DNA of 64,000 bases. It comes from Pelagomonas calceolata (lineage: Eukaryota > Sar > Pelagophyceae > Pelagomonadales > Pelagomonadaceae). Both the position numbers and the translations under genes were made by a program. This document shows positions 4,201-64,000 of the stretch, piece after piece (positions within the stretch are counted from its first letter, which is position 1; the number at the start of each line of letters is the position of its first letter). Under the pieces are notes generated by a model. The model was not told the DNA's origin, did no database searches, and saw only the letters and a list, made by a program, of their open reading frames with translations. The stretch lies in assembly GCA_918797485.1 (NCBI GenBank), contig CAKKNE010000004.1, positions 4,402,001-4,466,000 on the forward strand, read 5' to 3'.

Positions 4201-5196
4201 GTGTGTATTCGTTTGCTAGTGTCTTACAGGCCGCTAGCCCCGGCGAGTGTCTTGTTTTTTTTTCCTCGCGTCGTCTCTCCGACCTACGCGCCGGCGCCGG
4301 CGCCGGTCGAGGAGCCGTGGCAGCCGGCGCAGCCCGCGCGCCGGCGTTCGCGGGCGGCGCGCGAACCCACCGAGCCAAAGCCCCCGACGGGGCGCCGCCG
4401 CGGCACCGTCAAGGTCGTCAAGCCGGGCTATTGTTTCGTGGTGCCCGACGCCGGCGGGCCCGACGTCTTCTGCTCGACGCGGCTGAACGACACGATCGCG
4501 GCCGGCGACCGCCTCGAGTACGACCTCGTGCCGAATGAGGGCCGTAGCGCGCACAAGGCGGGAAACGTGACGATCCTGCCGCGCGCGGCGGTCGGCGCGG
4601 CACCACGGCCGGCGCCCGTCCCCGCGCCGGCGCCCGCGGCGGTCAAGCCCGTCGCCGACAAGCCGGCCCCGCGGTGGTCGAGCGCCGAGGCGGCCCGCGA
4701 CGCCGACGCCCTGGAGTTCTTCTACGAAGGGGACGCGTCGAAGCTCGAGCCGCGCTTCTCGGCCCCTGTGTGTGGAAATCAAATTTTGGGCGCTGCACGC
4801 CATCGACGCGACATGCTTTCAGTAGCTGCGTCTGCGCGATGGCGTGGCGATTCCACGCCATCGACGCGGCGTTGTCCCCGTGGGCGCATCGGCTCGATGG
4901 CATGGAGGCTCACGAAGGTCCATGCAATATTTCTCAGAACCTAACTCACTGGTTGATTTCCACACAGGTCGGCCCAGGACGGCTCGCCGCCAGAGTTTCT
5001 GTGCCCCCTCACGATGGAAGCGATGACCGACCCGGTCTTTGCGGCCGACGGCCACGTGTACGACCGGGCGTCGATCGAGTCCTTCCTCGAGACGCACGAC
5101 ACGAGTCCCCTCACGAACGAGCCGCTGGCGACCAAGTCCCTGACTCCGAACGACGCGCTCCGGTCTCGCTTGCGCGAGCGCGCAACGCTCCTCTAG
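4201..5196 (+). CDS. Cold-shock-like plus U-box protein, split by an introner
   Basis: Two exons, 4201-4767 and 4978-5196 (261 aa as drawn). Exon 1 encodes a proline/alanine-rich leader, then an OB/cold-shock-like stretch (RRRGTVKVVKPGYCFVVPD ... DVFCSTRLND ... GDRLEYDL) at about residues 65-130. Exon 2 encodes a U-box: EFLCPLTMEAMTDPVF, then GHVYDRASIESFL and PLTNEPL, as in E3 ubiquitin ligases. The junction reads SAP/DGSPPEFLCP and is in frame only if the introner at 4768-4977 is removed. Oddity: there is no in-frame ATG before the U-box. The frame opens at a GTG only 26 bp after the previous stop, and a CTAG repeat (4215-4238) lies inside the open frame. The true start is therefore unknown; it may be a non-ATG codon or an upstream exon I cannot place. 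The product would be an RNA-binding ubiquitin ligase by inference. Confidence 0.72.
4215..4238 (+). repeat. CTAG-bounded inverted repeat, copy b
   Basis: GCTAGTGTCTTACAG then GCCGCTAGC. It lies at the start of the cold-shock/U-box gene, immediately before a T-rich run. Confidence 0.85.
4768..4977 (+). mobile_element. Introner element IE1 (210-nt intron), long form
   Basis: The element runs from CTGTGTGTGGAAATCA (4766) to TGATTTCCACACAG (ending 4967). The flanks are CTCGGCCC on the left (4758-4765) and GTCGGCCC on the right (4968-4975), seven of eight identical. It is atypical. The left duplicate has lost the G of a GT donor, so splicing most likely uses GT inside the left end (4768) with AG two bases beyond the right duplicate (4976-4977). 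The removed length stays one period, 210 nt, and joins a perfect U-box. Internal sequence includes CACGCCATCGACGCGA and CTAACTCACTGG, shared with other copies. Confidence 0.88.
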
Positions 5197-5304
5197 TGTA
5201 ACATCACCATGATTCAATGATTTCTGGTGTCAAGCATTACTGCAGTGGATGGGGGGCAGGGGTGGTTATGTACAGAGTCCGGGCGCGGGCGGTCAGGGGC
5301 CACT

Positions 5305-8300
5305 TCACGGCGGACCATCCTCCAACGACGAAGTCGACGCCGCCGGGACCGGCGTCGGGCACTCGCACGGCAGCCGTTGGAGGCATACTCGGCAGTGCAG
5401 TGGTGGTTGCAGAGTGGGGCGAAATAATCCGGGCGCGCCAGGCGGCGTCGATGCCGGTCCGTCTTCCGGCCATACAGCGGCCGGTGCTCGGAATGCGGCA
5501 GATGTTGTCGCGGCACGAAGGGCGGAGCGCGCCGCGGTCGTGGCGCGGCTCTGGGTGCCCGCCGGCGTCGCAACTGGTCCATCTTCCGCGTCAGCACGCA
5601 CCGCCGCACGGAACGTGGCCGTCGTCGTCACTGCGTGAAGAGCGGAGCGCGCCGTGTCCGACGCGCGACTGCGCGAGCCGGTTGTGGGCGGTCCGTCTTC
5701 CGGCGCCCAGTCGGCCGCCATAGCGGACGTGGCCAGGAGGCGGAGAGCGGAATCGATCACCCGCGCCTTCTCCTCCGCCGCCACGCCGTCGGCGGGCGCG
5801 AGGACCTTCTCGCTGAGCCATCCCTGCGCATCGCCGGCCACGACGCGGCAGCGCGCCGCGCCCGTCCTCGTCACGCCGCGTTCATACACGACGACGTGTG
5901 AGCCCCGGGGCAAGTCGCCGACGTGCGGCGAGTCCATCTCGACGCCCGCTCGCAGGCGGCCACCCGCCCGGCCCACGACGGTAAATATCGACGGTGCCGC
6001 GGGGCGCAGCGCCTGCGGCGCCATCGCCGAGCGCGTGATAACACGGGGCGCCGCTGCCGGCGGAGCAGGCGCGGCGGCGGCGGGCGCAGCGGCGGCGGGC
6101 GATGGAGTAGATGCCGCAGCCGGTGGTGGCGGGGGGCGCGTCGCCGCTTGCGGCGCCGCCCCTCTCCCTATCACTTCACGCGTGATCGCCTGGGCCGCCG
6201 GCGTCGGCGCATCTTCACGAACAACGCGCTTGAGCGACGCCAGGCGCGACTGAAACTCGTGTCGAGCTGAAGGTGCCGGTGCCGCAGCAGGCACAGCGGC
6301 GGGCCGGTGGTGGGGCCCGCGCGCGGGCTGGGGCGCCGGTGCCGGCGCCGGAGCTGGGCGCTGGAACCACCTGGGCTTCGGCTTCGGCTTTTGCGCAACT
6401 GGAGCCGGCGCCGGCGCCAATGCCCGCGGCGGTGCAGCGCGCGTATTCGTCGCCGGTGCAGGCGCGGCGGCCGGCGCGGGCGCTGGCGCGGCCGCCGCGT
6501 CCGCTTTGGTCCCCTTGGTCGGAGGGGTCGTCGGTCGCTCGAGCGTCGACGCGTGGTCTTCGTCTTCAGAAGAGCTGCCTTCGCTTTTGTATTGGATGTC
6601 CGCCACCTGGTCGGCAGCCTTCTCCTCCTCCGCCGGGGGCGCCGCTCCTCGCCCTATTGCGGGGCGCGTCGTCGTGGGGGGTGCCGGCGCTGGTGCCGGA
6701 GCAGGTTGGCCCTTGACCACGTTCTTCGCAGGCGTCGGCGCTGGCTCGGGCTGAGCCACGGGTTTATGTTGCGCAGCGCGACTCGTGGGAAACCAACTGC
6801 GCTTCTTCTTGGCCGCGGGCGCGGGTGATGGTGCGGTCGCTGGCTTCGCCGATGGCTTCGCGGGTGGCGTTTTCTTCGGCGGCGCTCCGGCTTCTCCATC
6901 ATGTGGACCGGCCTTCGACTCGGCGACGCCGCGCTCCGTTTTCGCCTCGGCAGCACCGGGCTCCGCCTTCGCCTCGGCAACACCGGGCTCCACCTTCGCC
7001 TCGGCAACAGCTGTCGTCGTCGCGGGCGCGGCTGCGGGTGCGTCGGCCGGCGGCGCCGTCCCTCGCCCTATCTCCGCGCGCGTCGTCGCCTGAGCCGCTG
7101 GCGCCGGTGCCAGGACAGGCTCGCCCTTGACGTCGGGCGCCCCGGCTGGCGCAGGTGTTGCCGGCGGCGCCGCTCCTTGCCCTATCGCGGCGCGCGTGGT
7201 CGGCTTGGCCGCCGGCGCCGAAGCGGACTGGGCGACCTGTTTGGGTTTCGCAGTGCGCATCGGGAACCAACCGCGCTTCTTGGCCGCGGGCACGGGGGCT
7301 GGCGCGGTCGTCGGCTTCGCCGCGGGCTTCGCCTCGGGCTTCGCGGGTGGCGCTTGCTTCGGCTGCGCTTCGGACGTTCTTTCGGCGGACTCCGCCTTCG
7401 CCTCGGCGACACCGCGCTCCGTTTTTGCCTCGGCCACACCGCTCGCCGGCCCGGGTGCGGGCGCCGCCGCCGTCGTTGCAGGTGCGGGTGCAGGCGCCGG
7501 CGGCGCCGTCCCTCGCCCTATCTCCGCCCGCGCCGCTTGGGCCGCCGGCGCCGGTGCCTGCCCCGGTGGCGTCGTCGGTGCCGCTGGCGCCGGTGCGGGC
7601 CGGGCGGCGGGTTTCTGCGCGGCGCGGCCCTTGGGGAACCAGCTGCGCTTCTTGGTCGCCGGCGTCGGTGGTTTGCGAGCGTCTGGCTTTTTCGCAGGCG
7701 GCGCTTTCTTGGGCGGCTGCTTCTTGGGCACAGCCTGTTTGGCCGGCGCCTTCTTGGGCGGCGCTTTCTTGCGCCGCGCCTCGGGCTCTTCCTCCGCGGC
7801 GGGCTCCTCGGCCTTGGCTTCCGGGACGCCGCCGTCGGATGCGGCTTCGACGCTGCGCGTTTGCCGAGCGGCCACCACTTTCTTGGCACCTATGATCGAC
7901 AAGAGCCAGTTCCCCTTCGTCTTATTGTCGGCCTCCGGCGGTGGCGGCGCATCGTCGTCGTCGTCACCGGGAGGCGGGGGCAGCGCTTCTTCCTCGTCCT
8001 CATCGGGCGGAGGCGGCGCTTCCTCGTCGTCGTCCTCATCGGGCGGAGGCGGTGGCGCCTCCTCGTCGTCACTAGGAGGCGGCGGCGGCGCCTCGACGTC
8101 TGCGTCCGCGGGCGACGTCTTCTTGTGGTGATGGTGGTGCTTCTTATGAACCGCCGGCGCCTCGACGTCGACGCGCGCCTCCTGCTGGAGCGGCATCTCG
8201 CGCACGAGCGGTGCGGATGCCGGCGCGGGCCGCGGCAGCCAGCCCATCTTTCCATCCGCGGTGCGCCCCCACTCGCGCGCGGGCGGCGCCAGCCAGCCCT

Positions 8301-11300: not shown

Positions 11301-14300
11301 GATCGGCGAGCGCGGGTGAGCTGTAATAGCCGACGCTGACGTTCGCGAAGGGGTTCACCGTCGTGTTCACAAACACTGGCTCCGTCGATGACCCCACGTT
11401 CTGGTAATAGTAGAGCTTGCCGTCCTCCGCCCCGATGACGAGGTCGACATCGCCGTCGTCGTCCAAGTCTGAAAAGTGCGGGGCGCTATTCTTCCCGACG
11501 TCTATGCCGGCAAAGGGGTCGTCCGCCGCGCCCTCGACCTTCTCGAAGCCCATCGAGCCCACGTTGCGGTAGTAGACGAGTTTGCCGCCCGAACTTCCCA
11601 CTACCAGATCGATGGCGCCGTCGCCGTGAATGTCCACCAAACTCGGCGTGCTATCGGCGTCGCCCACGACAACGCCGTCGAGCAGATCCGTCCTTTCGAA
11701 GAGGGGCTTCCCCGCGTCGCCGACGTTCTCGTACAAGACGAGCCCGCCGTCCGCCGAACCCATGATGATGTCCTCGTCACCGTCCCCGTCCACATCCGCA
11801 AATGCCGGAGCGCCGTTCCCTCCGGCTCCCTCGACGGATTCGAGTGGGCTTATCGCGTCGGCCCGAGCTATCAACTCTGGGGCCGTAGATGTTCCCCTGT
11901 TTACGTAGAGGCCGAGCGCGCCGTCTTGACGTCCCAACACGAGGTCCACGTCGCTGTCGTCGTCAAGATCCACGAACACCGGGGAGCCGTAGGTCTCGGA
12001 AATGCCATCGAAGGGATTGTCGCTCTCGGTCCGGGCCATGAAGAGCGGCTGACCGGTGAAGCCCACGTTCTCGAAGTAGCGCATCTTCCAGACCTGGCCT
12101 TCCCTAAGGACGACGACCAGGTCCAGGTCGCCGTCTCCCTCGACGTCCGCGAGCGTCGGCACGCTGCTGTCGCGGCCGACGTCGATGCTGCTGAACGGGT
12201 CCGCCTCGTCCGTCCGCTCCTCGAACCGCGGCACCGTCGCGTTGCCCGTGTTTTGGAAGAAGGCGAGCCTGTCGTCGAGGTGGCCTGTGCAGAAATCAAA
12301 TTTCGCGGCGCAAGCAAGACGGGCTGGTTGATACCCACACTGGAGCTGGCCCAGGATCAAATCTACAGCGCCGTCGTTGTCCACGTCGGCGAGCGTCGGC
12401 TTCGGGTGCGTGTATCCCTTGCCGGTAACAGCCGCGAGCAGATTATCGTTTTTCTCGAACGTCGGCGCCTCTCGGCTCCCCGTGTTTTCCAGAAACGCGA
12501 CGGTGCCGTCGTAGCTTCCGATCACGACGTCCAGATCACCTGCGCGGCGGGACGTAGGTCGTGGCGAGGTGGAAGCCGCGGACGCCGGACCGACCGTCCG
12601 CGTCTAGGTCAGCCAGCGCCGGAGCGCTCTTCGAGCCGGCGTCGATGCCGTCGAACGGGTTCGCGCCTTGGGTTCGTCTCTCGAATCTTCCTTCCACGTT
12701 CTCGAAGTAGAGCAGCTTGCCGCCACTCTCGACGCCCAGAACTAGATCCAGGTCCCCGTCTCCATCAAGATCTCCGAACGCCGGGCTTGCGTACGCGCCG
12801 CCGTCGATGCCCTCGAAGGGGGCGTTCGCGACCACTTCCGAGAATCTATGCGTGTTGCCCCAGCAAACTTCAGCGTCGCGGAGCCTGCAGTACGGCGTTG
12901 CGTCGGCCGTCGGCGCGTACTCGTAGGGCAGGGCCGGCGCCGGAGTGGCGTCCGGCGAGAGAGTCGGCCGCAGCGTGGGGTGTTGAGACGGATTCGGCGT
13001 AGGCTTGGGCGTCGGCTGGTGCGTAGGGCTGCCCGGCTCCGTTGTGGGGCGTGGCGTCGGCTGCATGGCCAGCACGCACGACATGAAGCCGCCTGTGCAT
13101 AAATTAACCAGTGAGTCGGGTGCACAATAGCGGCCGTGCTGGCTGGAACGAGACGCGCCGCGACAATTTGATTTATGCACTGGTAGCCGCTGCTGTCGGG
13201 CACGGGGGAGGCCCCCTGCTGGCACCAGCACTCGCCCACGCCGGATTCAGGCAAGTTCGCGATCTCGAAGTCAGGGCACTGATCCATTACTTTCTCAATA
13301 CACTCGTCGGGCGAAGACACCTGGCCGACCGATTGCTCGCCGTCCGTGTTACTATTGCTCTCGACCCAGCCGCAGCCGTTCCAGAGCGCGGCGACGTCGG
13401 GGTCGACGCAGTCGTAGCCACTCTCCCCACACGTATTTGTGGAAGTGGAGACGCACGTCGACGCGCAGCAGTCTCCCTTGTCGTAATTGCAAGACTCGAC
13501 GTTGTTCTGGGAGTCACAATAACCGTCGCCGGCCCAATCTAAGTAATAGCAGTCGAGCCCGGTCGTCGCCGCCTCGGGAGCACCCACGTCCTCGACCGAA
13601 GCCGCGGCGAATACGTCGGCCACGCCAGCGTCGGCAGCAGCGCCCTGTACGGCCGAGAGGAAGTCTGAGGCGGTGTGGCTCGCGGCCGCGTCGACCGCGG
13701 CGGCAGCGGCTGCGGGAGAATCGTAGAGGACTACGTAGCTGACGACGACGCTCCCGCTTTGGAGACGCCTTCGGCCAGATGAAAACGTCACAATAACTTT
13801 GCTGGCGGCGACGTTGTAGAGGTCGGCGACCGCCGACGCGTAGACGTTCGCATTCGCCTCGGCTTCTGCCAGCGTGATGCCCTCGCAAGTAATCGTGCCC
13901 TCGACGGCGTCCGAGGTCTCAGGCGTCGGCGCGGGCGTCGGCCGAGGCGTCGGGCGCGGCGTCGGTCGCTGCGTCGGCGCCGGTGTCGGCCGCGCAGTAG
14001 GTTCGCCGGGCGCCACCGATGGCGCCGGCGTCGGGCGCGCGGTTGGACGCGCAGTCGGTCGCGGCGACGGGCGCGCAGTCGGATCGCCGGGCGCCACCGT
14101 CGGCACTGGCGTTGGGCGTGGCGTCGGCAGCGGATGGGGTACTTCGGTCGGGAACGGCGTCGGTCTCGGCAATGGGCGCGCGGTCGGATCACCGGGTGCC
14201 ACCGTCGGCACCGGCGTCGGGCGCGGCGTCGGGCGCGGAGATGGCGCTGACGTCGGTACATAAGACGGGTGCGGATGGGGTACTTCGGTCGGGAACGGCG

Positions 14301-17726: not shown

Positions 17727-18552
17727 ATGCGGACAACGTTGTGCGCAGCGTTCGCCAGCATCGCCGCAGCACTGCGGACGACGCACCGACGAGCGCTGCT
17801 GCTGAGCCCCGCGTCTCTCTACCCGCTTGCCGTGCGCGCGGAGCCGCTGCCCTCGGGCCGCAAGGAGCTCTACGCGCTCGTGTGCGCCGCCGCGTGGGTA
17901 CTCAATCGAGCCGCGGGGGGTCGCTGATGACGGCGATGCTGCCTTCCTATTGACGACACGAGTGAAACGACCATTGCTTCGCGTTCTGGCGCCTTCGCCG
18001 GCGCCGCCTGAGACCCCCGCGCCGCTTCTCGCCCGCCGCCGCGCTGCCTCCCTCTCCCGATTCACACGTCGCCGCGCGCAGCGCCGACGCGCGGCGGCAG
18101 CTCGACCCCGTGCCCGGCGGTGCATAAATCAAATGGTCGACGCGACGTCAGCACGACGGCGTCGCGTCGATGTCACTGGTTGATTTTGTGCTCAGGTGCC
18201 CGGGCTCCTCGAGGCGCGCAAGTGGGACTCCGTGCGCGCGATCCTCATCACGCCGCCCCTCTCGGACTGCTGGGGCAAGAACGCGCGGCCGCTGCTGCGC
18301 GACTTCGCGGCGGCGCTTGGTGACAGCGGTGGCGACGAGCTGGCCGCGCTCGAGGCGCGCGAGGACGCGATGAGCCACCTGCGGTATCTGGATATGGCCG
18401 TCTACAACAACGTCTTCAGCCCGGCCGGCGGCGACGCGGCCGTGAGCGCGTCGAAGGACCTCGTCCGGCAGTACGTCGAGCTGCCGGCGCAGGAGCTCGC
18501 AGCGTCCACGAAGGCCCTCGACATTCTCGTCGACCTGGGTAAGGTGAAGTAG
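17727..18552 (+). CDS. Thylakoid-lumen PSII extrinsic-like protein (PsbQ/Psb31-like)
   Basis: ATG at 17727 gives MRTTLCAAFASIAAALR, a signal-type start, then THRRALLLSPASLYPLAVRAEP, a twin-arginine lumen-type signal. The body ends at TAG 18550-18552 and reads DPVPGLLEARKWDSVRAIL ... LRYLDMAVYNNVF ... ALDILVDLGKVK, a helical pattern like PsbQ or Psb31. An introner (18110-18195) must be removed to keep frame across VPGLLEARK. The segment from about 17890 to 18100 contains stops and must hold another intron. I cannot fix its borders; one phase-consistent choice is GT at 17898 to CAG ending at 18100, giving LDPVPGLL. The role would be stabilising the oxygen-evolving side of PSII; the family call is tentative. 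Confidence 0.6.
18110..18195 (+). mobile_element. Introner IE4 (86-nt GT-AG intron), TGCAT end type, perfect TSD
   Basis: GTGCCCGG at 18110-18117 is duplicated perfectly at 18196-18203. The element is CGGTGCATAAATCA to TGATTTTGTGCTCAG. The left duplicate supplies GT and the element end supplies AG; removal leaves one GTGCCCGG and an intact frame. An internal GTCGACGCGACG ... CGTCGCGTCGA hairpin-like inversion is present. The perfect duplication suggests a young insertion. Confidence 0.92.
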
Positions 18553-18561: not shown

Positions 18562-19430
18562 TTAGTTGCCCCGGGCGGCGGCCATGCGCTCGCGGAGCGG
18601 CACGCGCTTCCTGTCGCCGGCGGCGCGCTTGGGCTTGGCGGGGAAGCGGAGCGCGACGAGCGCCGACGAGTCGCCTGCCCCGAGCGCCTCCGCCGAGGCC
18701 TCCGCGAACGCGTCCCGGTCCGGCGCCGGCGCGAGCGCGCGGAGGAGGGCGGTGGCCGCGGCGCGGTCGCGCGTCGCCACTTGCAGGGCCGCCCCGCAGG
18801 TGGCGGTGAAGCGTGCGCCGCCAGGCGGCGCGTCGGCGCCTGTGTGGGAAATGAAAATTTGGTCCGCGAGATGACCTAACTCACTGCGTGATTTCCACAC
18901 GGGTCGGCGCCGGCGAGAAGGAGGCGCGTGGCGGTCTCAGCGGCGAGCGTCTTGCGCGCCTTCGAGCCGGCCGCGCAGTGTTTGACGACGGCGTCGAGCG
19001 CGGCCGCGTCGCCGGTCGCCGCGAGGGCGTGGAGCGCGCGCCGCGCGGCCGCGGCGAGGAACTTGAGCTCGTGCGTCGCGCGGGCCAGGAGGCTCGCGAC
19101 GACGGCCTCAGCGTCTTCCGCCGTGGCGGGCGGCACTCCCGCGAGGAGCAGGTCGCCGAGCGCCTCGAGCGCGGCGCGCGCCGAGGCGGATCGCAGGTCG
19201 CGCGACTCCTTCGCGAGGAACGAGAAGAGGTCCGGCGGCCGGCCGTCGAGGCCGCCCTCGTCGCGGGCCCGGCGCCGGACGGCCAGGACCGCCGCGTGCC
19301 GCGGCCGCCAGGCGTCCGGCGCCTGCAGATTCATGAGGTCGCAGATCTCGGGCCAGGCGAGGAGCGCGGCGGCGTCCTCGTCGGGAGCGTCGCCCGGCGC
19401 GGCGTCGTCTAGTATTGGCGGTGTTGCCAT
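18562..19430 (-). CDS. HEAT/TOG-like helical-repeat protein
   Basis: Two exons, 19430-18911 and 18839-18562 (265 aa), joined by removing introner IE5; the junction LLLAGAD/APPGGARFT is seamless. ATG 19430 (MATPPILDD) is the first Met after a non-ATG frame opening. The protein is made of Ala/Leu-rich helix pairs: ALEALGDLLLAGVP, VVASLLARATHELKFLAAAARRALHALA and ALDAVVKHC. This resembles HEAT repeats, especially TOG domains of the CLASP/TOGARAM group that bind tubulin. It ends in a basic tail (RKRVPLRERMAAARGN). No signal peptide or TM helix. A microtubule role is an inference from the repeat pattern. Confidence 0.62.
18840..18910 (+). mobile_element. Introner IE5 (71-nt GC-AG intron), antisense, perfect TSD
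   Basis: On the gene (minus) strand the donor is GC of GCGCCGAC (18910-18903), the element runs CCGTGTGGAAATCA to TTTCCCACACAG (ending 18840), and GCGCCGAC repeats perfectly. The only GT near the left end gives the wrong phase with any AG, so GC-AG is required. The element's CTAACTCACTG block is on the plus strand, so it is antisense to the gene. Confidence 0.9.
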
Positions 19431-19722: not shown

Positions 19723-21013
19723 CTAAGCCCAGCCCTTGTTCCCCGCCGTCGCCGCCATCTCGACGCCCTCGTCGTCGTCGTCGAGCTGCGTGCCGGCGAT
19801 GGCGTACGGGTTCGCCGGCGCCGCGCGCCGGGCCCGGATGCAGAACCCCACGCCGAAGCCGATCACGACGGCCAATAAAGCCGCGGCGACGTACATCCAG
19901 CCGTCGTCACCTGTGTGGAAATCAAAATTTCACGGCGCGTTCGTGCTGAATCGTCGCGTCGTCCTCCACGCCATCGACGCGACGCCTGCTCGAAGGCGTG
20001 GCGATGTGAATTCCTCATCGCTCGACCGAGCCAGGACGGCCGCGTCATCGCCGGGAAATGACTTAGTGCACCCGACGCACTGGTTGATTTCCACACAGGT
20101 CGTCACCGGACGGCGCCTCGTCCGGAGAAAGCGGCGGCGTCGGGCGCCGCGTGTGCGGCCGCGGCCGCGGCTTTGGCGCCGGCGTCGCTGCGGCCGCCTC
20201 TTTATCACCACCGCCATAATAGGAGTAGTAGTAGTCGTCGTCCCAGAACTCGGACTTGTATTTGGTGGTGGGTTGGAACGTCGGTTTGAGCGTCGGCGCC
20301 GACGGCGCCGGCGTCGCCGTCGGCGCAAACGTAAAAGTCGTCTTGTGGATGACGACGGACGCGTCCTTGAACCAGGGCCCGTAGAGGCCCTTGTAGTACT
20401 CCGAGTCGACGCCACCGTCCTCAAATAACAAATAGCGCGCGCCGACCATGTCGCCCCCACCAAAGGTGTGGTTGTGGTTCTCCCACACATCATTCCCGTA
20501 GCCCGCGCCGCCCTTCGTCTCGCACCACTGGTAGGCCTCCTCCGTGGTCACCTCCGAGTGTTTTCTACACGGTGCCCACCGCCTCAACTTATGCGTACAC
20601 TTCTCGTCGCTGCATAATGCTGCCCGCATGAAAAACTTGTCGACGCTGTAGAACTCCTTGACGTCCTCGGACACAACTACCGCGACCTCGCCGGCGTCGA
20701 TCATCTGCTCGGTGACGCGGCCGCCGACGAGCGGCACCGTCTGGCGCCGCGTGCAGGCCTGGTACGACGTCTTGAAGACGTGCTCGCAGGGCTGGGGGTT
20801 CTCGGGCGTCTCGCAGCCCTCCGTCTGGATGTGCGGCGCCCAGCCGGCGGTCACGGGCGGCGTCGCATTATACAAGCCGGGCACGACGTCGCGCCAGCCG
20901 TTCATCGAGGCCTCGTCGGGGCCGCCGTTGATGAGGAGGTTGCCCGTCAGGGCCTCCTGGATCTCTTCTCTATAGGCGCGCGCCGCGGCGGCGAGGAGGA
21001 GCAAGCGGCGCAT
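19723..21013 (-). CDS. Type I single-pass membrane protein with introner-split TM exon
   Basis: Two exons, 21013-20107 and 19910-19723 (364 aa). Start MRRLLLLAAAARAY is a signal peptide. The lumenal or extracellular part has NLLINGGPDEASMNGWRDV, reminiscent of galactose-binding-like/DUF642 modules, with many cysteines, then a Pro/Thr-rich stalk with a Tyr-rich patch (DDDYYYSYYGGG). Removing introner IE6 joins PSGDD to GWMYVAAALLAVVIGFGVGFCIRARR, a clear TM helix followed by a basic stop-transfer, then a short acidic cytoplasmic tail ending GNKGWA and TAG. Without splicing the frame ends within the element and the helix is lost, which strongly supports the intron. A surface glycoprotein of unknown ligand. 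Confidence 0.8.
19911..20106 (+). mobile_element. Introner IE6 (196-nt GT-AG intron), antisense, perfect TSD, long form
   Basis: GTCGTCAC at 19903-19910 and 20099-20106 flanks CTGTGTGGAAATCA ... TGATTTCCACACAG. On the minus-strand gene this reads donor GTGACGAC, element, CACAG, GTGACGAC. The interior contains CTCCACGCCATCGACGCGAC, and positions 19940-20002 match the intergenic relic at 63159-63221. Long form like IE1, but in antisense orientation to the gene. Confidence 0.94.
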
Positions 21014-26987: not shown

Positions 26988-29613
26988 TCAGCCGCAGTTC
27001 ATGGCGGCCTTATCGATGAAGGCAGCCATGTCAGCCTTGAGGAGGGGGTCGATGAGGACATGGAGGAGGAAAAGTCCCGAGGACGACGCGACGGCTGCAT
27101 CAATCGCTGCCGGTAGTTCGCCTGCCTTCTCGACGCGGATACCGTCGCCGCCGTAGGCCTTGGCGAGCGCGACGCAGTCGGGACCGTCGATTTCGCAGCC
27201 GGCCGCGCCCTGGAAACCGAAGATGACGCGGCCTGTGTGGAAATCAACCAGTGAGTGAGTTAGGTTCGCGTCGATGGCGTGGGGCGCCCGATATTTGATT
27301 TCCACACAGGACGCGACCGAGGAGCGCGTTGTCGAAGACGATGACGAGGAGCCGCTGCCCGGGCCGGCAGTGCTGCTTGAAGGTCGCGAGCTCCTGCAGC
27401 GTCATCTGGAAGCCGCCGTCGCCCACGACGACGACCGCCCGCTGCGGCGCGGGCAGCGTCTGGAGGGCGGCGATGCCCGCGCAGAGACCGTACCCCATCG
27501 TCCCGAGCCGCTCGGACGAGAGCGTGCGGCCGAAGTGCGGGTAGCAGAGCGAGGCCCACAGGGTTATATCTCCGGTATCGATACAAAGCACGGGCCGCGG
27601 GTGCTCGTCGCTTAATGCCTTTGCGAGGGATTCGAGCGCCGTCGCCGGATGCGGGCGCCCCGTCGCGGCCATCTGCATGTGCACCGACATCACTTTCTTC
27701 CCCAACTTGGGCGTGACCAGCGGCGCGTCCGGGTCGACGGGCTTCTGCTGCACCGGCGCCATCAGGTCGACGGTGTAGCGCGGCTTGGACCGCCGCCCCG
27801 CCTTCACAAGCTTGGGGATCTCGTCCCAGAGCCGGTTCGCGAGTTCGAGGGTGCGTTCACTCACTTGCCGCGTGGTGTGATCCACGCCGATCGCCTTCTC
27901 CGACGACGTCGACTGCCTTCGGAGGAGCTGGGGGCGCTTCGTCGTCTCGAGGATGTCGGCGAGCGCCTCGGCGGCAGTGGCAAGGTCGCCGATGACGGTC
28001 TCGACGGCGCGGAAGCGGCCCTTCACGTCCAGCGCCGTCTCCGCGAACTCGACCATCTTGTGGATCTGGAACCCAGCGTTGTTGCAGAGGAGGAGCGAAT
28101 GGTCCTCGACGCCGAACGCCAGGACCAGCTCCGCCGTCGAGACGAGGGCTGCCGCATGCTCGAGGCCCGGCTTCCCGTGCACGCCGACAACGCCGAACGC
28201 GAGGGGGTCATGCTCATCAACTAAGCCCTTCGCGTCCAGGCGGTAGAGGATCGGGGCGCAGGCCTGTCGGGCCAGCCGCGCGAAGCTCGATCCGCAGCAG
28301 AGCGCCGCCTTCGCGCCCAGCGCGATGACGATGCGCGGCGATGCCCGAACCAAAGTCGCGACATTGGCGACGGCCTCGGCATCCGGGCCCCAGCGCCGCA
28401 TCACTCGCTCCTGGGCCGCGGCGGCACAGAAGCGCTTGAACGGCAGGGGCGCCGGGGCGGCCTGGACGTCGACGGGGATCGCGAGGTGGACGCACGTGCG
28501 CTGCGTCACGGCCGTCGAGACAGCGTCGCGCAGCAGCGGAATCAACGATTCCGGTGAGGCCACGTCCACCGAGAAGCTGACGCCGCCGCCCGCGAAGAGC
28601 CGGCTCTGGTCGACGTCCTGAAATTCCGCGAAGTGCAGCGACTGGCGCGGCTTGAGGCCCGTCAGACAGACGACGGGCAGGCGGTCCTGGCACGCCTCTA
28701 CCAGCCCCGTCGTCAGATTCGTGGCCCCGGGCCCCGACGTCGCGATGCAGCAGGCCAGTCGGCCCGTCAGCTTCGCCTCGGCAGCAGCCATGAGCGACGC
28801 GTTCGCCTCGTTGCGGACGCAGATCCAGTTCAGGCGCGGGTTCGCGCAGACCGCGTTCACGAGCGGCACGAGCGCGCCGCCGTGCCCGCCGTACACGTTC
28901 GTGCAGCCGGCGTCGGCGAGGGCGTTCATGATCCAGTCGCTGCAGTCGCGCCGGAACGCCTCGACGGGCGCGAATTCTCGTACGCCTTCCACCATAAATG
29001 GAGGCGGCTTGGAGACGCGCGCGTGGCAGCCGCCCCAGAGCACGAGGAGCTCGCAGCCCTCGTCCGTGTAGGACCGGTGGACGGAGCCGATCTCGTTGGC
29101 GAACGCGGAGCCCGCGCGATGCGTCCGCGTCTCGAAGTCGTCCTTCGTCGTCTGCGAGAGGTCCGCGTCGAGCACCGCGGCGCAGCCCTCGAGGAAGCGG
29201 TCGTTCTCCGGCTCCTCCGTCCGCTTGAGGCGGTCCTCGGACAGCGCGCCGCTGATCACGTAGACGACCTCGACGTTCGGGTGGCAGTGGAGCTCGATGT
29301 TAGTACCCTTGGCGACGGCCATATGCGCCCAGCTCAGCAGCCGGCCGTTCGAGCGCCACGTCCGCCTTACTTCGTCGAGCTCCGTCGGCGGCAGCGTCGC
29401 TTCGGCGGCCTTGATGCATTCACTCTTGACGTGCGCCGCGTCGAGGACCGCGACGGGGTTGCGGCGCGGCAGCTCGTTGCATGCCGCGACGGCGCCGTCG
29501 AGCTCGGGCAGGCCCTCGCAGTCGGCGGGCCGCGTCGAGTTGGGCAGGCGCGCCTTGGGCGGCACGAAGGCCGGGACGTGGGCGAGGTGCGTGAGGACCA
29601 CCGGCTTAGCCAT
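26988..29613 (-). CDS. Cupin-ThDP enzyme fusion (acetolactate synthase/pyruvate oxidase-like)
   Basis: Two exons, 29613-27318 and 27232-26988 (846 aa), joined by removing introner IE7. Start MAKPVVLTHL; the frame is open upstream to 29898, so a longer N terminus is possible. Residues about 80-175 form a cupin (GTNIELHCHPNVEVVYVISGAL). From about 200 it is a full ThDP enzyme: PYR domain with ALVPLVNAV and IRxEANAS-type catalytic Glu (VRNEANASLMAA), CIATSGPGATNLTTGL, a central domain, then the PP domain with VVVVGDGGFQMTLQELAT and FDNALLGR (GDG...N cofactor motif). The spliced junction NALLGR/VIFGFQGAAGCEID restores the PP domain. The reaction probably involves a 2-keto acid; a cupin fused ahead is unusual. 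Cytosolic by appearance. Confidence 0.83.
27233..27317 (-). mobile_element. Introner IE7 (85-nt GT-AG intron), short form
   Basis: On the minus strand: donor GTCGCGTC (27317-27310), element CTGTGTGGAAATCA ... TGATTTCCACACAG (ending 27233), then GCCGCGTC, a one-mismatch 8-bp duplication. The interior is nearly the same as IE8 (GGGCGCCCCACGCCATCG, then a CTAACTCACT block). It looks like an internally deleted version of the long form. Sense orientation. Confidence 0.92.
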
Positions 29614-29982: not shown

Positions 29983-30993
29983 ATGCGCGTTCGAACAGTG
30001 CTACCACTCCTGCACGCCATCGCCGCGTACGCAAAGCCAAAAACAGCAGACAGCTACGCCAATATAACTGGGGTGCCGCTCTGGGGCCAGCAGCACTACG
30101 TGAACGGCTACCGCTGCGCCGACGGCACAATCATTCCACGCGCGCGCGTCAACGACGACGCCTGCGACTGTGTCAGTGGAGGCGACGAGCCCGGCACCTC
30201 CGCGTGCGCCGGTCGTCAGCAATTCTTCTGGTGCGCGGCAGATCGGCGCTTCATTCCGAGCAGCAGAGTTGGAGACGGTGTTGTTGACTGCTGCGACGGC
30301 GCCGACGAGGCCATGCGGACGGCGCCGCCGACGGGCCCGCGGCTCATGCCGCGCTGCCCGTCGTCGCACGACGAGGTCGCCACCTTTCAAAAGGGCGCGG
30401 CGCGGCGGCGCGAGCGCTTCGGCGGGCGGACGATTAGTGACGCTTTGAGTGGCCAGTGCGTCGAGAAGACCCTGGTGCCCTTCACCTACGTCCTATGCTT
30501 CGGGAGCCGTGCGGAGCAGAGGGAGGGCGGCGAGCGGCGGTCGCTCGGCGACGCCCGGGCCTTCGACGCGGTCTCGCGGACGTGGCGCCACGAGGGCGGC
30601 GACGCCTGCCCGGGGGACGTGGCTCGGACGGCCACCGTGGAAATTGAGTGTAGTGCGGGGCTGTGTGGAAATCAGACTTCGGGCGCCCCACGCCATCGAC
30701 GCGAACCTAGCTCACTGGTTGATCTCCACACAGGCGCCGGGCCAGCGGATTACGAGATCCTGTCCGTCGACGAGGTCTCCATGTGCGTGTACCACATACG
30801 CGTCGCGTCGCCGGCGGGCTGCGACGAGATGCGGCGCGAGGAGCTCGGCCCGCGCCTCGACGCCGTCGAGGACGACGGATCGCCCCGAGTGGTCAACGGC
30901 TGGCTGCTCACGCGGGGCGAGCGCGGCGAGGGCATGTGGTACCACGTCGGGACGGCGGCGACGCAGCTCTTCGCGCCGGAGGGGTGGTTTTGA
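29983..30993 (+). CDS. Glucosidase II beta-like/MRH lectin, short form
   Basis: Two exons, 29983-30652 and 30734-30993 (309 aa), after removal of introner IE8. Signal peptide MRVRTVLPLLHAIAAYA. The N-terminal part has paired LDL-receptor-A-like units typical of glucosidase II beta: GYRCADGTIIPRARVNDDAC, DCVSGGDEPGTSAC, then RVGDGVVDCCDGADE. The C-terminal half carries an MRH (mannose-6-phosphate receptor homology) domain: CVEKTLVPFTYVLCFGS, a cysteine/Trp-rich core and VSMCVYHIRVASPAGC, which binds N-glycan mannose. The family protein (PRKCSH) is about 500 aa with an acidic coiled middle. Here that middle is missing, so the two lectin parts are nearly adjacent. It should act in ER glycoprotein quality control. 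No C-terminal HDEL is seen. Confidence 0.82.
   Translation: MRVRTVLPLLHAIAAYAKPKTADSYANITGVPLWGQQHYVNGYRCADGTIIPRARVNDDACDCVSGGDEPGTSACAGRQQFFWCAADRRFIPSSRVGDGVVDCCDGADEAMRTAPPTGPRLMPRCPSSHDEVATFQKGAARRRERFGGRTISDALSGQCVEKTLVPFTYVLCFGSRAEQREGGERRSLGDARAFDAVSRTWRHEGGDACPGDVARTATVEIECSAGLCGNQTSGAPRHRREPSSLVDLHTGAGPADYEILSVDEVSMCVYHIRVASPAGCDEMRREELGPRLDAVEDDGSPRVVNGWLLTRGERGEGMWYHVGTAATQLFAPEGWF
30653..30733 (+). mobile_element. Introner IE8 (81-nt GT-AG intron), in-frame, short form
   Basis: Donor flank GTGCGGGG (30653-30660), element CTGTGTGGAAATCA ... TGATCTCCACACAG (ending 30733), then GCGCCGGG: six of eight positions match. The length is 81 nt with no stop in frame, so an annotator could miss it. 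Removal gives IECSAGPADYEIL, and read-through adds 27 residues translated from the element (LCGNQTSGAPRHRRE). Closely related to IE7. Confidence 0.9.
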
Positions 30994-33276: not shown

Positions 33277-34920
33277 TCACGCCCGCTTCTCCGCGTCGGC
33301 GCACGCCTCGGTCGCGAGGACGTCGAAGACTTCCTCGGCGGCTTCGGGCGATAGAGCGTGGGGCGCGCCGACGAAGCCGCGGCAGCCCTCGTCGAAGCAT
33401 CTTTGCCGAAACACGGCCTGGTTCAAATCCACAACGAAAAATATGTTGTTCGACTTGTGGGGCCGGCCGATGCGCTCGCAGAAGCGGTTCTTCGCGAGGT
33501 GGTACGTGAGCGTGTGGGGCGTGCGCCGCCACGCCCGCACCGTCGCGCCGGGCCGCGCCGCGAGGATGCACGCGTCGACGCGCGGGAAGGGCGACGGCAG
33601 CGAGCCCTCTGCGAGCGCTTGTGGCCGCGGGGCCATTGGTGACGCCATCACTTCAGAGGGCGTCACGACATCATGCCGCGATTCATGCGAGCCCAACAAG
33701 CGCGACGGCGCCGCGACGGGGACGACGAGCGACGCCTCGGGCAATGCGTCCTCAGACGCCAGGCGCCCGTCACCCACGACAACAAGAGGGGCGCGCTTCG
33801 TCTTCTTGGAACTCCCGCACAGTCGGAAGCACCGGTTCCGCGAGTAGACCGACGCGTCCACGAAGGACTCTCCATTTATCACGAACGCGTCGTTCGTGGA
33901 CGCGAGGACGCGGCGCACGAAACTTCCTAACGCCGCCGCATCCACAAAGGCCGCGCCGTCGGGCAGGCAGAACGTCGCGTGGCGCGAGAATTTCGTTGAA
34001 GTCGACGCGTCGAGCTGCAGGACGTGGTCCTTGACGCTGATGGCGCAGAACGGCTCTGTAGCAGCACGCCGTGCCACGGCGGCGACGTGGTCGTAGACCG
34101 CCGCTTTGGCGGCGTCGGGCTCGTTCCTTGAAGCTTCCGACGCCGCCTCCGCCGCGCGCAGCGCCGTCTCCCTGGACACGCCGTCGAGTTCTACCCTAAG
34201 CTGCTCGTCGAGGTCCGGGCACGCATCATACAACCCGTGGCAGAGCGCGGCGTTGCGATGGGACTCGAATAACGCCGTCGGCGCGTAGAAGGCCTCCTCC
34301 AACGCCCCCGCGAAGACGGCGAGCCAGCGCCTCGTGAGGTCGTCTCCATTAATAGAAGCATCGTCCCTCGCAAACTCGAGGTCGAAATACGGCCGCACCG
34401 GCGCGCCCTCCCTTATTAACTCATAGAAGTGCCTTTTTTCAGACGTCATCGCCTCATAGACCTCGCGAAAGGCATTCAAATGAGCGTAGACGTAGCGCCG
34501 CTGGCCCTCGCCCCCGACCTCCTCGCTCCAGAGCCGGCCCGGATTCTGGACGTTGGGCACGCCGTAGAACTCGAGGTCCGATCTAGCGTCGAGGCGCCGT
34601 TCCAGAGCGTCCGCGGCGTCGTCATTTGTGAGCGGTCCTGGTGCATGACCATTCATCACATCTGCATGCTCCAATAACCAGGCCTGCTTCCGAAAGATAC
34701 GGTAGGCGCCCTTCGCTTGGCGCTTGCGAGTGTCCACCAAACGCGCCTCGTCGATCTTTTTGTATTCCGCGCCGAGGTTGCGGCCGTCGGACGTCTCGTA
34801 GAAGGACGCGGTCGAGACGGCTCTCCGCTTGGGCGTGCGCTGCGTTGTGGAGGTGCGCCAGTCGTCGCTGTCGGAATCATCGTCGTTGCGCCGCGACGCA
34901 TCCGTGACGCGTCTTGGCAT
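33277..34920 (-). CDS. PRIMPOL: PrimPol DNA primase-polymerase
   Basis: 547 residues, about the length of human PrimPol (560). It belongs to the archaeo-eukaryotic primase superfamily and re-primes stalled replication in nucleus and mitochondria. Motif I is VRPYFDLEFARD (about residue 177; Asp and Glu bind metal). Motif II is KFSRHATFCLP (about 311; S-x-H). Motif III is ESFVDASVYSRNRCFRL (Asp). The C-terminal zinc-binding segment, about residues 480-510, reads RFCERIGRPHKSNNIFFVVD then QRCFDEGCRGF, giving the Cys-His-Cys-Cys set needed for priming. No RPA-binding motif was identified with confidence. Single exon; divergent from the cysteine-dioxygenase gene. Confidence 0.95.
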   Translation of the reverse strand: MPRRVTDASRRNDDDSDSDDWRTSTTQRTPKRRAVSTASFYETSDGRNLGAEYKKIDEARLVDTRKRQAKGAYRIFRKQAWLLEHADVMNGHAPGPLTNDDAADALERRLDARSDLEFYGVPNVQNPGRLWSEEVGGEGQRRYVYAHLNAFREVYEAMTSEKRHFYELIREGAPVRPYFDLEFARDDASINGDDLTRRWLAVFAGALEEAFYAPTALFESHRNAALCHGLYDACPDLDEQLRVELDGVSRETALRAAEAASEASRNEPDAAKAAVYDHVAAVARRAATEPFCAISVKDHVLQLDASTSTKFSRHATFCLPDGAAFVDAAALGSFVRRVLASTNDAFVINGESFVDASVYSRNRCFRLCGSSKKTKRAPLVVVGDGRLASEDALPEASLVVPVAAPSRLLGSHESRHDVVTPSEVMASPMAPRPQALAEGSLPSPFPRVDACILAARPGATVRAWRRTPHTLTYHLAKNRFCERIGRPHKSNNIFFVVDLNQAVFRQRCFDEGCRGFVGAPHALSPEAAEEVFDVLATEACADAEKRA

Positions 34921-35475
34921 AGCGGAGCTTGCTTTTCAGGCTGCTATGCCCTAGACGTATGTGTTGTGGATTAATGACGCCTAGGTCGCGTCGACTGCGC
35001 GGGCGCACCGAGGTCTTTGCAGCTGTGAGTGTGTCCCGACCCGTAGAGGTGCCTTTTTCACGTCCGCAGCGCAAGCAGTAGTTGGTTGCCGGCTTTTTGC
35101 TGCCTTTCAATGGCCCGTAACTACAGCAATATGGCCTCGATGAGGGCTGCGCGAACGCGACCTAGCGGGCTGTAAGACTCTAGCAAGCAGTCTGCGGAAC
35201 AAACTTTGACGGCTCACTGTGTACGTATAACTGGTCTGCGCTACGAATTGACAAGTTAACAAGTGCCAACGTCATCCACGCTTAGACTTGCGGCGAAAAG
35301 AGCCAGCGCTTTAGTGTGCCGAACAGCCAAACAACAAGGGGCCCCAAATCAAATAGCAAGGAGTACCAGGGCGAAAAAAGCCGCACGCTTGAGTGTCAAG
35401 GACAGCTGAACACGCCCCCTCACCAGGAAGGTGTTATAGTTTAAATTCAAGGAGCTACGACGAGGAGAAACAACA
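34921..35475. other. 555-bp divergent promoter region with repeats
   Basis: Contains a reverse CTAG-bounded inverted repeat (35161-35184) and an imperfect direct repeat of about 45 bp near 35292 and 35372 (GCGAAAAGAGCC... and GCGAAAAAAGCC..., each followed by CGCTT.AGTGT). Less GC-rich than the flanking genes. No gene supported. Confidence 0.6.
35161..35184 (-). repeat. CTAG-bounded inverted repeat, copy d
   Basis: CCTAGCGGGCTGTAAGA then CTCTAGC; reverse orientation, 292 bp before the cysteine-dioxygenase gene and 240 bp from PrimPol. Confidence 0.82.
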
Positions 35476-37305
35476 ATGCGCGCCAAAGTCATCTTCGCGT
35501 GCTGTTCCATCGCCACAGCCATGGTGCTGGAACGAGCGCGGCCGGTCGCGAGGCCGCGGCCGGCGCCACCGAAGCCGCCGGCCCTCCCGCCCTCGCTCGC
35601 GCCGCCGGAGACGGGCAGCTTGGACGACGCCGGCCCGCTCTACCTCTCGCTCTCGTCCCTCTTCTCGCAGATCGGCGCACGGCTGCGCCAGACCGAAGCG
35701 CCGTACGACGCGGCCACGATCAAAGACGTCCTGGCGCTGCTCGGCCGCGCCGAGCTCAACCCTGTCGAGTGGGAGCAGTTCTCGGAGCAGCGGAGCGACC
35801 GCTACACGCGCAACGTCGTGGCCGTCGACGAGCGCTTCGTGGCGCTGTGCCTGACTTGGGACGCGGGCCAGGCTTCCAAAATCCACGACCACGCTGGATC
35901 ATCGTGCTTTGTCAAGCTGTTATCTGGCGACCTCGAGGAGCAGAAGTACGCCGCGCGCTACGCGGACGGCACCTGGCGCGAGCTCGGTGGGCCCGAGGCC
36001 GTCGCGACTGGCCAAGCGACGTACATGGACGACTCGCGTGGCCTGCACCGCATCTCAAATCCAAATACGGAGACGCCGGCCGTCTCCCTACACATCTACG
36101 CCCCCGGATTTGAGGAATGTGGTATTTACGGCGACGACGGTGACGTGACTACCGGCAGCATGGTGTCGGCGATGGGCGTGGCGTCAGATGAAGCGACCCT
36201 CGATCAGGGAAAATTATCGCTTGCCACCCTCGGCGACGAGCTCGCCGGCGGCGCCGCGGACGTCGACGCGCTGCTCGCACGCCTCGAGCTGACGCCCGCG
36301 GAACAGCGCGAGTACTGCTCTGGCGCGTGCTTCTCGGAGTTCGGCTATGCGAGACATCTCGCTCATATCTCGGCGGACTACTCGGTTGTTGTCTGTTGCT
36401 GGCTCGCGGGCCAGGCCTCGGACCGCCACGTGCACGGTGAAGATCAGCGTTCTTGGACGAAAGTGTTGCATGGCCGGCTCGAATACGCGTTTCCAGATGC
36501 TGGGGAGGAAGGTCATGCCGCGCACGTTGTCCTCGAGCCAGGCCGGGTCTTCGGCGAAGAGCACTGGATGAAAACAGAATCAAGAATCGCGCGCAACCCG
36601 TCGAGCGACTCGGTCTGCGTCTCGCTCCACGTCCGGAGCCCGCCACTCACGACCCAAGGCTTCGACCGAATCGGTGCGCGCGATGCGGTCCGGCACGCGG
36701 CGGCGGCGCCCGACGCGCTCGCCGCGGCGCGCGTGCGAGGCAACAACCTGTACACGAGTGTCGGAGGCCTCACGAATCTACTGGACGAGGCGTTCGCGGC
36801 CGGCGGTGATGTCGCTGACGTGACGAACGTTCTGGCCAACGCTCGCCTCAACGAGCGCGAGTGGCGCAATTACGCGCGCTGGAACAAGGACACGTTTTCA
36901 CGGGTATTGGTTGCCGACCGCGAGGACTACAACATGTTTCTAGTAGCGTGGGAGCGCGGCAACTTCTCGCCCGTGCACGACCACGCCGGCAGCGCGTCCT
37001 GGACGAAGGTGCTCGAGGGCGAACTCGACGAGGCCGTCTACGGCGTGGCGCCGTCGGGAGAGCTGCGGCTCGAGCGCTCCGGGCCCATGTCGGCGGGAGT
37101 CACGTATGCCCACGAGGGCTTCATTCACGGCTGCGTCGCGTCGACGCGGTGTTTCACGCTGCAGGTGTACTCTCCACCCTACAAGAGCGCCAACGCCTAC
37201 GACGCCGACGGCGCCACAACAAAGATCCCGACGCACGTGCGCGGCGATCGCGTCGACGGCGACAAATTCACGGAGCCCGCGTCTCCCGTGCTCCACGACC
37301 ACTGA
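35476..37305 (+). CDS. Triple-domain cysteine dioxygenase-like protein
   Basis: 609 residues with an N-terminal signal-like segment (MRAKVIFACCSIATAMV). Three cupin domains of the cysteine dioxygenase family lie in tandem. Domain 1 (about 50-220) has YTRNVVAVD, KIHDHAGSSCFVKLLSGDLEE, GLHRISN and AVSLHIYAP. This includes the HxH plus later His iron ligands, and the Cys and Tyr of the family's Cys-Tyr crosslink. Domain 2 (about 230-400) has RHVHGEDQRSWTKVLHGRLE but SLHVRSPP in place of the Tyr. Domain 3 (about 415-590) has NMFLVAWERGNFSPVHDH, then SWTKVLEGELDEAVYG, EGFIHG and TLQVYSPP: Tyr kept, Cys lost. Family enzymes oxidise cysteine to its sulfinate or act on other thiols. Domain 1 looks most complete. 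Single exon. Confidence 0.88.
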   Translation: MRAKVIFACCSIATAMVLERARPVARPRPAPPKPPALPPSLAPPETGSLDDAGPLYLSLSSLFSQIGARLRQTEAPYDAATIKDVLALLGRAELNPVEWEQFSEQRSDRYTRNVVAVDERFVALCLTWDAGQASKIHDHAGSSCFVKLLSGDLEEQKYAARYADGTWRELGGPEAVATGQATYMDDSRGLHRISNPNTETPAVSLHIYAPGFEECGIYGDDGDVTTGSMVSAMGVASDEATLDQGKLSLATLGDELAGGAADVDALLARLELTPAEQREYCSGACFSEFGYARHLAHISADYSVVVCCWLAGQASDRHVHGEDQRSWTKVLHGRLEYAFPDAGEEGHAAHVVLEPGRVFGEEHWMKTESRIARNPSSDSVCVSLHVRSPPLTTQGFDRIGARDAVRHAAAAPDALAAARVRGNNLYTSVGGLTNLLDEAFAAGGDVADVTNVLANARLNEREWRNYARWNKDTFSRVLVADREDYNMFLVAWERGNFSPVHDHAGSASWTKVLEGELDEAVYGVAPSGELRLERSGPMSAGVTYAHEGFIHGCVASTRCFTLQVYSPPYKSANAYDADGATTKIPTHVRGDRVDGDKFTEPASPVLHDH

Positions 37306-62015: not shown

Positions 62016-62080
62016 CAGGCTCAGGCTAGTTACGTCGCGGGGTCCCCCGTACCCCTCCCGCTCCCCCCGGGCCCACCCGT
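62016..62080 (+). repeat. 65-bp dispersed repeat, copy 2
   Basis: Matches 2682-2746 at 64 of 65 positions (one A to G) and again precedes a CTAG element within 20 bp. Confidence 0.9.
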
Positions 62081-62086
62081 ATGTTT

Positions 62087-62110
62087 GCTAGTATCTTACA
62101 GGCCGCTAGC
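62087..62110 (+). repeat. CTAG-bounded inverted repeat, copy i
   Basis: GCTAGTATCTTACAG then GCCGCTAGC; 171 bp before the Sel1-gene ATG. Confidence 0.85.
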
Positions 62111-62280
62111 TGAAAAATATAAAAGCCACACGCAAGGTCGCAGTTGACGCTGGCGCCAAGCCGTCGTACCATAGTCGATCGAGCGTGACAGTGGTGTGCA
62201 CAAAGCGGTGAGCTCGCCGATTTTGCAATTTGCAACCCTGTAAAAGTAGATTGATAAAGCACGTGGCTGCAGACGCACTC

Positions 62281-63099: not shown

Positions 63100-63158
63100 G
63101 TACTGTGCTGTTTGTACTGAGTGCACTGAGTACGTGGTTTTTTTCGGTCCATCTGCGT

Positions 63159-63221
63159 GCCACGTCATCGAGCGGACGTCGCGTCGATGGCGTGGAGGTG
63201 GGCGCAACGATTCAGCACGAA
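63159..63221 (-). mobile_element. Introner relic (intergenic fragment of a long element)
   Basis: On the minus strand this stretch begins TTCGTGCTGAATCGT and contains CTCCACGCCATCGACGCGAC, and it aligns with IE6 positions 19940-20002. By eye about 55 of 63 bases match without gaps. Neither inverted end is preserved, so it is a dead internal piece outside any gene. Confidence 0.8.
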
Positions 63222-63230
63222 GGTGTGCTT

Positions 63231-63254
63231 GCTAGTGTCTTACAGGCCGCTAGC
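63231..63254 (+). repeat. CTAG-bounded inverted repeat, copy j
   Basis: GCTAGTGTCTTACAG then GCCGCTAGC, the same as copy b; 212 bp before the kinase ATG. Confidence 0.85.
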
Positions 63255-63465
63255 CCACGCGAGCTCGGAGCCAAGATTATCTGCCGTGGCGCCTCGCGGG
63301 CCGATCAAACTTGCCCCTCGCCTTATCAGATAGCCGGCGATTGTCCGGTGACGATTTCTAGCGCGCCGGCCGCTCAGCTTTGAGTGTTTCTCACTTGCCC
63401 GGTTTTTTCTCGCTTTGCCGGCGCCGCGGAGCCGCATGCGCCAGATATTTCCGGCCCAAGCGGAC

Positions 63466-64000
63466 ATGGAGCAGCATACCACGAAAAAAGTCTCGGGCGA
63501 GAAGCGCGGCCGCCCCTCTCTATCAGCGGAAGAAACCGCCGAGCAAAACCGCCTGCGGCTCTCGGCCTCGTTCAGAACCACCATGCACCACAAGGCCGGC
63601 TCGACTCTGAAGAAATACTCTGTCTTGAGGGAGTTTGCGCTCGGCGACGAGTTAGGAAGAGGCGGCAACGCGCAGCGCCGAATCATGACCTCACCGCGAG
63701 CACCCGACTCACCGATGGATTTGCGCGCAGGCTACGCGACCGTGTTCCTCGCGACGCCGACGGCCCCGGGCGCCGCGCCGCGCGCCGTCAAAGAACTGAA
63801 CCTGAAGCGCGTGAATGACATCGCCGCGCTCGAGGACGAGATAAAGACGTTGCGGCGCCTCGACCACCCGAACGTCGTGCGCCTCTACGACTGCTACCTG
63901 ACGACCGACGACTTCTTCATGGTGCTGGATCTGTGCCGCGCGGTGTGGCAATCAACTTTCGGGCGCCCCACGCCATCGACGCGACGTGCTTCCGTAGCTG
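63466..64000 (+). CDS. Protein kinase (5' part), two introners
   Basis: Partial at the right edge. Exons 63466-63664 and 63731-63932 by my model. Start MEQHTTKKVSGEKRG. A basic, disordered leader is followed by YSVLREFALGDELGRGG/YATVFLATP, the glycine-rich loop, restored when IE9 is removed. Then APRAVKELNLKRVND (VAIK-like Lys), a charged alpha-C helix (AALEDEIKTLRRLDHPNVVRL) and the hinge DDFFMVLDLCR. The catalytic lobe lies beyond the window, after introner IE10. Subfamily unclear; the YATVF and ILDHPNIV-like words fit CAMK/ULK-type Ser/Thr kinases. The position of the start is provisional. Confidence 0.78.
   Translation, partial: MEQHTTKKVSGEKRGRPSLSAEETAEQNRLRLSASFRTTMHHKAGSTLKKYSVLREFALGDELGRGGNAQRRIMTSPRAPDSPMDLRAGYATVFLATPTAPGAAPRAVKELNLKRVNDIAALEDEIKTLRRLDHPNVVRLYDCYLTTDDFFMVLDLCRAVWQSTFGRPTPSTRRASVA
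63665..63730 (+). mobile_element. Introner IE9, highly diverged (66-nt GC-AG intron)
   Basis: Donor GC of GCAACGCG (63665-63672), acceptor GCGCAG ending at 63730, then GCTACGCG: an 8-bp duplication with one mismatch. The ends CAGCGCCGAATCA and GGATTTGCGCGCAG are imperfect inverted repeats related to the family ends. 66 nt with no stop, so it is invisible as an ORF break. It lies exactly in the glycine-rich loop, and removal gives LGRGGYATVFLA. Confidence 0.78.
63933..64000 (+). mobile_element. Introner IE10, cut by window edge
   Basis: Donor GTGCCGCG (63933-63940), then CGGTGTGGCAATCA, ACTTTCGGGCGCC and CCACGCCATCGACGCGACG. The sequence after the core (TGCTTCCGTAGCTG) matches the corresponding part of long element IE1 (TGCTTTCAGTAGCTG), so it is probably a long form. 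The right end is outside the window. The left end CGG resembles IE4. Confidence 0.85.

Follow-up and report, generated by a model that had tools for sequence, protein, structure and literature searches.

Introners are a leading explanation for sudden, large-scale intron gain. Those described by Huff, Zilberman and Roy in Aureococcus in 2016 reportedly draw one splice site from the element and the other from the duplicated target. Aureococcus anophagefferens, a pelagophyte like Pelagomonas calceolata, harbors introners (Huff, Zilberman and Roy 2016, as cited in PMC9481584 and PMC7789003) that are presented as non-autonomous transposons with terminal inverted repeats and direct repeats of constant length (PMC7789003); the likeness to the elements treated here is one of description. 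Among the introner families of Gozashti et al. 2022, some reach up to 50% GC donors, and the method used there allowed for insertions in opposite orientation; Pelagomonas is not named in the main text of that study (PMC9860276).

In P. calceolata RCC100, whose assembly comprises six nuclear contigs (32.4 Mb) together with a plastid contig of 90 kb and a mitochondrial contig of 39 kb, Guérin et al. 2022 observed that intron lengths peak near 210 bp and, with reference to the Aureococcus work, ascribed this peak to introner elements (PMC9481584). Introners in P. calceolata are already known, both in kind and in species, which removes the novelty that the original prediction had claimed for its set of elements. 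The main text of PMC9481584 gives the length peak only; the full-length element described below, with a 203-bp consensus and an 8-bp duplication, amounts to 211 bp and matches this peak of ~210 bp. What the present analysis adds beyond that main text is the set of end, target and orientation rules in numbers, a second subfamily that has an asymmetric end, and a search for an autonomous partner, with a negative outcome.

Genome-wide distribution and architecture of the elements

The window is a stretch of 64,000 nucleotides (C4:4402001-4466000) belonging to a genome of 32,445,274 bp in 8 contigs, which was searched as a whole. The 14-base end of the element, with at most one mismatch, occurs 1316 times in forward and 1296 times in reverse orientation, against 6 and 0 for the reversed control; the ends are common to dispersed copies, as had been predicted from the window. 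When scaled by the window's ratio of elements to 14-base ends, these counts give an estimated total of about 3,000 elements. A search with the whole element returned at least 40 places at 78-100% identity, including the window's own copy, with full-length relatives at 78-93%. When thirty full-length copies were grouped, two clusters resulted, both with a consensus of 203 bp and a mean identity of 88-89%. The elements are about 50-206 bp long, 203 bp at full length, and have no coding capacity: 116 of the 117 copies sampled below measure 51-206 bp, the remaining one being a doubtful 375-bp call (L114). A second subfamily, with ends C[T/A/G]GTGCATAAATCA, is represented by 139 + 132 occurrences in the genome (control, 3).

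Inverted ends, short length and the lack of a transposase gene are the features of a non-autonomous TIR DNA transposon (MITE). The features of introners are found as well, namely many highly similar introns in unrelated genes, a target site duplication around each copy and, at the sequence level, one splice site from the element and the other from the target, with the coding sequence restored.

Introner copies in the window

Ten elements with common inverted ends had been predicted inside genes of the window, and all ten proved real on re-reading (Table 1). The first, initially given as 4768-4977, is now placed at 4758-4967, and the tenth ends at 64092, its last 92 bases lying outside the window and being read from the contig beyond 64000. 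Each of the ten copies lies between 8-bp duplications, in some cases altered at one or two positions; of the predicted 7-9 bp, usually 8, the 8 bp stand, while the apparent values of 7 and 9 result from point changes or from fortuitous identity with the C...G of the ends. A relaxed whole-element scan of the window recovered 5 of the known copies, and the reversed-end control recovered 0. No transposase was found in Pfam scans restricted to the window's large open frames, in agreement with the original prediction.

Table 1. Elements in the window. Coordinates are those of the removed piece, that is the element plus one 8-bp target copy; a slash separates paired target copies.
Coordinates	Strand	Type	Orientation	Element	Target copies	Donor	Acceptor	Host gene or remark
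4758-4967	+	introner copy	sense	202 bp (4766-4967)	intronic 4758-4765 CTCGGCCC (donor position mutated); exonic 4968-4975 GTCGGCCC			upstream of U-box domain
12285-12350	-	introner copy	antisense	58 bp	GCCAGCTC/GCCACCTC	GC	TGCACAG	FG-GAP repeat protein
13093-13190	-	second-subfamily copy		90 bp	8 bp	GC		CAGTGCATAAATCA at intron 5' end, TAATTTATGCACAG at 3' end
18110-18195	+	second-subfamily copy			GTGCCCGG, exact on both sides		TGCTCAG	
18840-18910	-	introner copy	antisense	63 bp	GCGCCGAC	GC	CACACAG	
19911-20106	-	introner copy	antisense	188 bp	GTGACGAC, exact	GT		
27233-27317	-	introner copy	sense	77 bp	intronic GTCGCGTC; exonic GCCGCGTC			TPP-binding domain of thiamine-pyrophosphate enzyme
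30653-30733	+	introner copy	sense	73 bp	GTGCGGGG/GCGCCGGG			glucosidase II beta-like (PRKCSH_1) domain
63665-63730	+	degenerate introner copy	sense		GCAACGCG/GCTACGCG	GC	GCGCAG	protein kinase (glycine loop split)
63933-64092	+	introner copy	sense		GTGCCGCG, exact on both sides			same protein kinase as 63665

Read in gene sense, the first duplicated copy starts with GT or GC in nine of the ten window copies, as originally stated. The exception is the copy at 4758, where the intronic target copy carries CT as against GT in the exonic one; it counts against the mechanism proposed below. At this copy, a GT inside the element, at 4770, permits an in-frame removal that leaves 12 additional nucleotides. 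This is what would be expected if both splice sites belonged to the element, with a donor GT within the terminal repeat (CTGT^GTGG) and 12 nt added to the mRNA by each insertion, an arrangement that has been reported for one Aureococcus sp. family (PMC9860276). Such a GT is indeed present in the end of the element. A donor of this kind would, however, need no GT or GC at the target, yet one is present in all 99 coding copies analyzed below, and copies whose intron bears CAGTGCAT or CGGTGCAT on its 5' side lack the second GT. We therefore consider it very unlikely that the element supplies both sites.

The consequences of retention differ between the copies. Retention at 19911-20106 would introduce four in-frame stops. 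The elements at 12285, 13093, 30653 and 63665 contain no in-frame stop, so that retention is possible at those loci individually; the period of 98 at 13093 still shifts the frame, and the period of 66 at 12285 is both in frame and open, so that this copy would be readable if retained too.

Repair of reading frames and protein domains

Reading frames were examined with a codon-usage model trained on long ORFs of the window, for the nine copies that lie wholly inside it. Precise removal joins the same reading frame in eight of these nine. At 18110, the upstream flank has no coding score, and the gene model is for this reason unproven. The predicted restoration of the protein by removal of one repeat period is supported by frame continuity in eight of the nine complete window copies and, in the larger sample, in 102 of 117, with the reservation on 18110. 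No coding score is observed on the + strand between 17966 and 18110 (+), where either a further intron that escaped recognition or an untranslated 5' exon may be present.

Domain matches were compared with and without the elements. For the protein kinase interrupted at 63665 and 63933, the unspliced frame across the first element has no Pfam match; taking out that element brings the score to 45.7 bits, and taking out both brings it to 109.1 bits. The thiamine-pyrophosphate enzyme matches TPP_enzyme_C over the full domain with 80.4 bits when spliced, versus 56.9 bits and a truncation at profile position 87 when unspliced, and the PRKCSH_1 domain at 30653 scores 43.6 bits spliced versus 34.5 unspliced. 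This repair of domains lends indirect support to the predicted removal of the elements by the spliceosome.

Splice-site rule in sampled copies

The sample consists of 117 paired elements with duplications, taken from the window and from fetched loci, many of which were chosen by an exact end on the + strand, a choice that favors neither gene strand. Only the codon usage of the flanks was used to call the gene strand. Frame continuity and a score threshold define 99 clear coding copies, duplications with more than two changes not being admitted. The best upstream frame predicts the best downstream frame after precise removal in the 102 copies mentioned above (chance, 1 in 6), and the frame was kept in 66 of the first 75 copies (p about 1e-41). 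Within the 99 coding copies, the two duplication copies are identical in 48 cases, differ by one change in 37 and by two in 14.

The sense-strand start of the duplication is GT in 73 and GC in 26 of these 99 copies, with no other dinucleotide, whereas the opposite end of the duplication shows GT or GC in 29. The intron 3' end is AG in 99/99, as against 77/99 for the matching 5' position, a discordance of 22 to 0 (p = 5e-7). The assignment of the donor to the duplicated target and of the acceptor to the element end, first made on the window, is borne out genome-wide in coding copies. With 26 GC donors out of 99, the non-canonical cases that had been put forward as notable turn out to be ordinary for the family.

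Inverted ends and 8-bp duplications are also typical of a cut-and-paste transposon, and nine of the 99 coding copies are open in frame if retained, as could be expected of ordinary miniature transposons that lie in genes mostly unspliced and owe the GT/GC rule to the target preference of their transposase. Retention would, however, shift the frame in 70 of the 99 copies and add a stop in 20 more, thus breaking the protein in 90, and the AG on the 3' side of the intron is invariably preserved. Moreover, the coding strand, on which GT/GC marks the sense-strand end in 99/99 and the other end in only 29/99, is invisible to a transposase. Pure target preference as the source of the donor rule is rejected because the rule follows the coding strand, and we regard mostly unspliced transposons as an extremely improbable explanation. 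Since a transposase is blind to the coding strand, the GT/GC and AG rules argue for splicing and for a loss of those insertions that splicing could not remove.

According to the side on which CACTGGTTGATTT lies, 48 of the coding copies are in sense and 42 in antisense orientation, 9 being unclear, which indicates that an acceptor can be provided by the terminal repeat of either end. In some second-subfamily copies, the CAGTG end would read CACTG, without AG, and so could not provide an acceptor. In all nine clear coding copies with the CAGTGCATAAATCA end, this end lies on the 5' side of the intron, with CACAG on the 3' side, and the orientation is sense.

Among copies whose two target sequences disagree in the initial dinucleotide, six pair an intronic GT with an exonic GC and two show the opposite arrangement, which is not enough to argue that stronger donors are selected. 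Beyond GY the donor shows no preference; as a 5' splice site this is weak, and it counts against the mechanism proposed below. This lack of consensus, together with the proportion of GC donors of about one quarter (26/99), suggests that the 5' splice-site requirement of P. calceolata may be permissive. With thousands of ends in a compact chromosome-level genome, fixed 8-bp duplications and near-equal orientations, these elements constitute a clean natural test: the original exon sequence stands beside every new intron, so that donor requirements and the loss of unspliceable insertions are directly measurable.

Proposed mechanism

Taken as a whole, the sequence evidence makes it almost certain, in our view, that the window copies are a non-autonomous TIR DNA transposon acting as an introner, with splicing as a predicted step. 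A transposase supplied from elsewhere, possibly hAT-like to judge from the 8-bp duplication, would insert the element and duplicate 8 bp. The first target copy in the transcript would then provide the 5' splice site whenever its sense-strand start is GT or GC, while the 3' splice site, and plausibly also a TTGAT resembling a branch point, would come from the terminal repeat TTGATTTCCACACAG. A cut from the first target copy to CACAG would yield exactly the original exon sequence. Because both ends bear the same repeat, insertion in either orientation would make an intron. Coding insertions without GT or GC were not seen; the gene would presumably be broken by them.

Search for the autonomous partner

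Duplications of 8 bp are compatible with hAT, P, Merlin and certain other superfamilies, and hAT ends begin YARNG, such as CAGTG. The introners have the 8-bp target duplication and short inverted ends in common with hAT MITEs, and one of the second-subfamily ends is CAGTG; they differ in that the main family ends in CTGTG and in that genome profile searches found no hAT transposase with these ends. An autonomous relative with the same ends, which the original prediction had proposed to look for, was not found by these searches either, the only hAT found having other ends. Whole-genome profile searches for MULE, Merlin/IS1595 and Harbinger-type DDE_Tnp_4 gave no match. Those for KDZ, P-element-like RNase H and DUF4371 likewise gave none; being silent in every control genome as well, they do not show absence. 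Viral contigs had no match to two exact end patterns or to one paired-end pattern.

The hAT dimerisation domain (PF05699) was detected in one gene of the whole genome, by a profile search that can miss weak matches. This gene belongs to a single-copy hAT element of 3,651 bp (C4:4499549-4503199, L040:4050-7700) with a 721-aa open frame; the inverted 20-bp ends CAGGGCAGCAGAAGGGCAAG of the element are perfect, and the 8-bp duplication around it, TTGCTCGC, is exact. The exact duplication at its edges indicates a real element end and rules out the reading of the inverted repeat as coding low complexity. Intact, located 34 kb to the right of the window, and the sole hAT match found in the genome, this element would be a candidate mobiliser for introners that likewise have 8-bp duplications; its ends, however, have no clear similarity to the introner ends CTGTGTGGAAATCA, and we judge this role improbable.

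The hAT element is apparently inserted in or beside a MYND/RING-variant gene. A degenerate stretch resembling an introner (CGGTGCATCAATCAG ... TTGTGCACAG) lies on its minus strand, at L040:~6489-6675, immediately ahead of the region coding for the zinc-finger-like beginning of the transposase. The hAT element would apparently carry another mobile element as an intron.

A change in the second base (CAGTG...CACTG to CTGTG...CACAG) might have turned a hAT-like terminal repeat into a complete 3' splice module and, once present at both ends, might have made the element spliceable either way; the second subfamily, which combines a CAGTG end with a CTGTG end, would then be a preserved intermediate. 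We offer this scenario tentatively and find it rather doubtful. Among the matches listed for position-2 variants of the main-family end, A is rarer than C or G; on these counts the main family seems to have been founded with CTGTG and not derived from CAGTG. CAGTG is a regular form only in the CATAAATCA subfamily.

Other genes in the window

One open frame at 35440-37302 (+) contains three matches to cysteine dioxygenase type I (PF05995) and a weaker PCO_ADO match. A short match to Herpes_UL52 primase (PF03121) is observed at 33280-34935 (-), and the protein encoded there is probably PrimPol-like.
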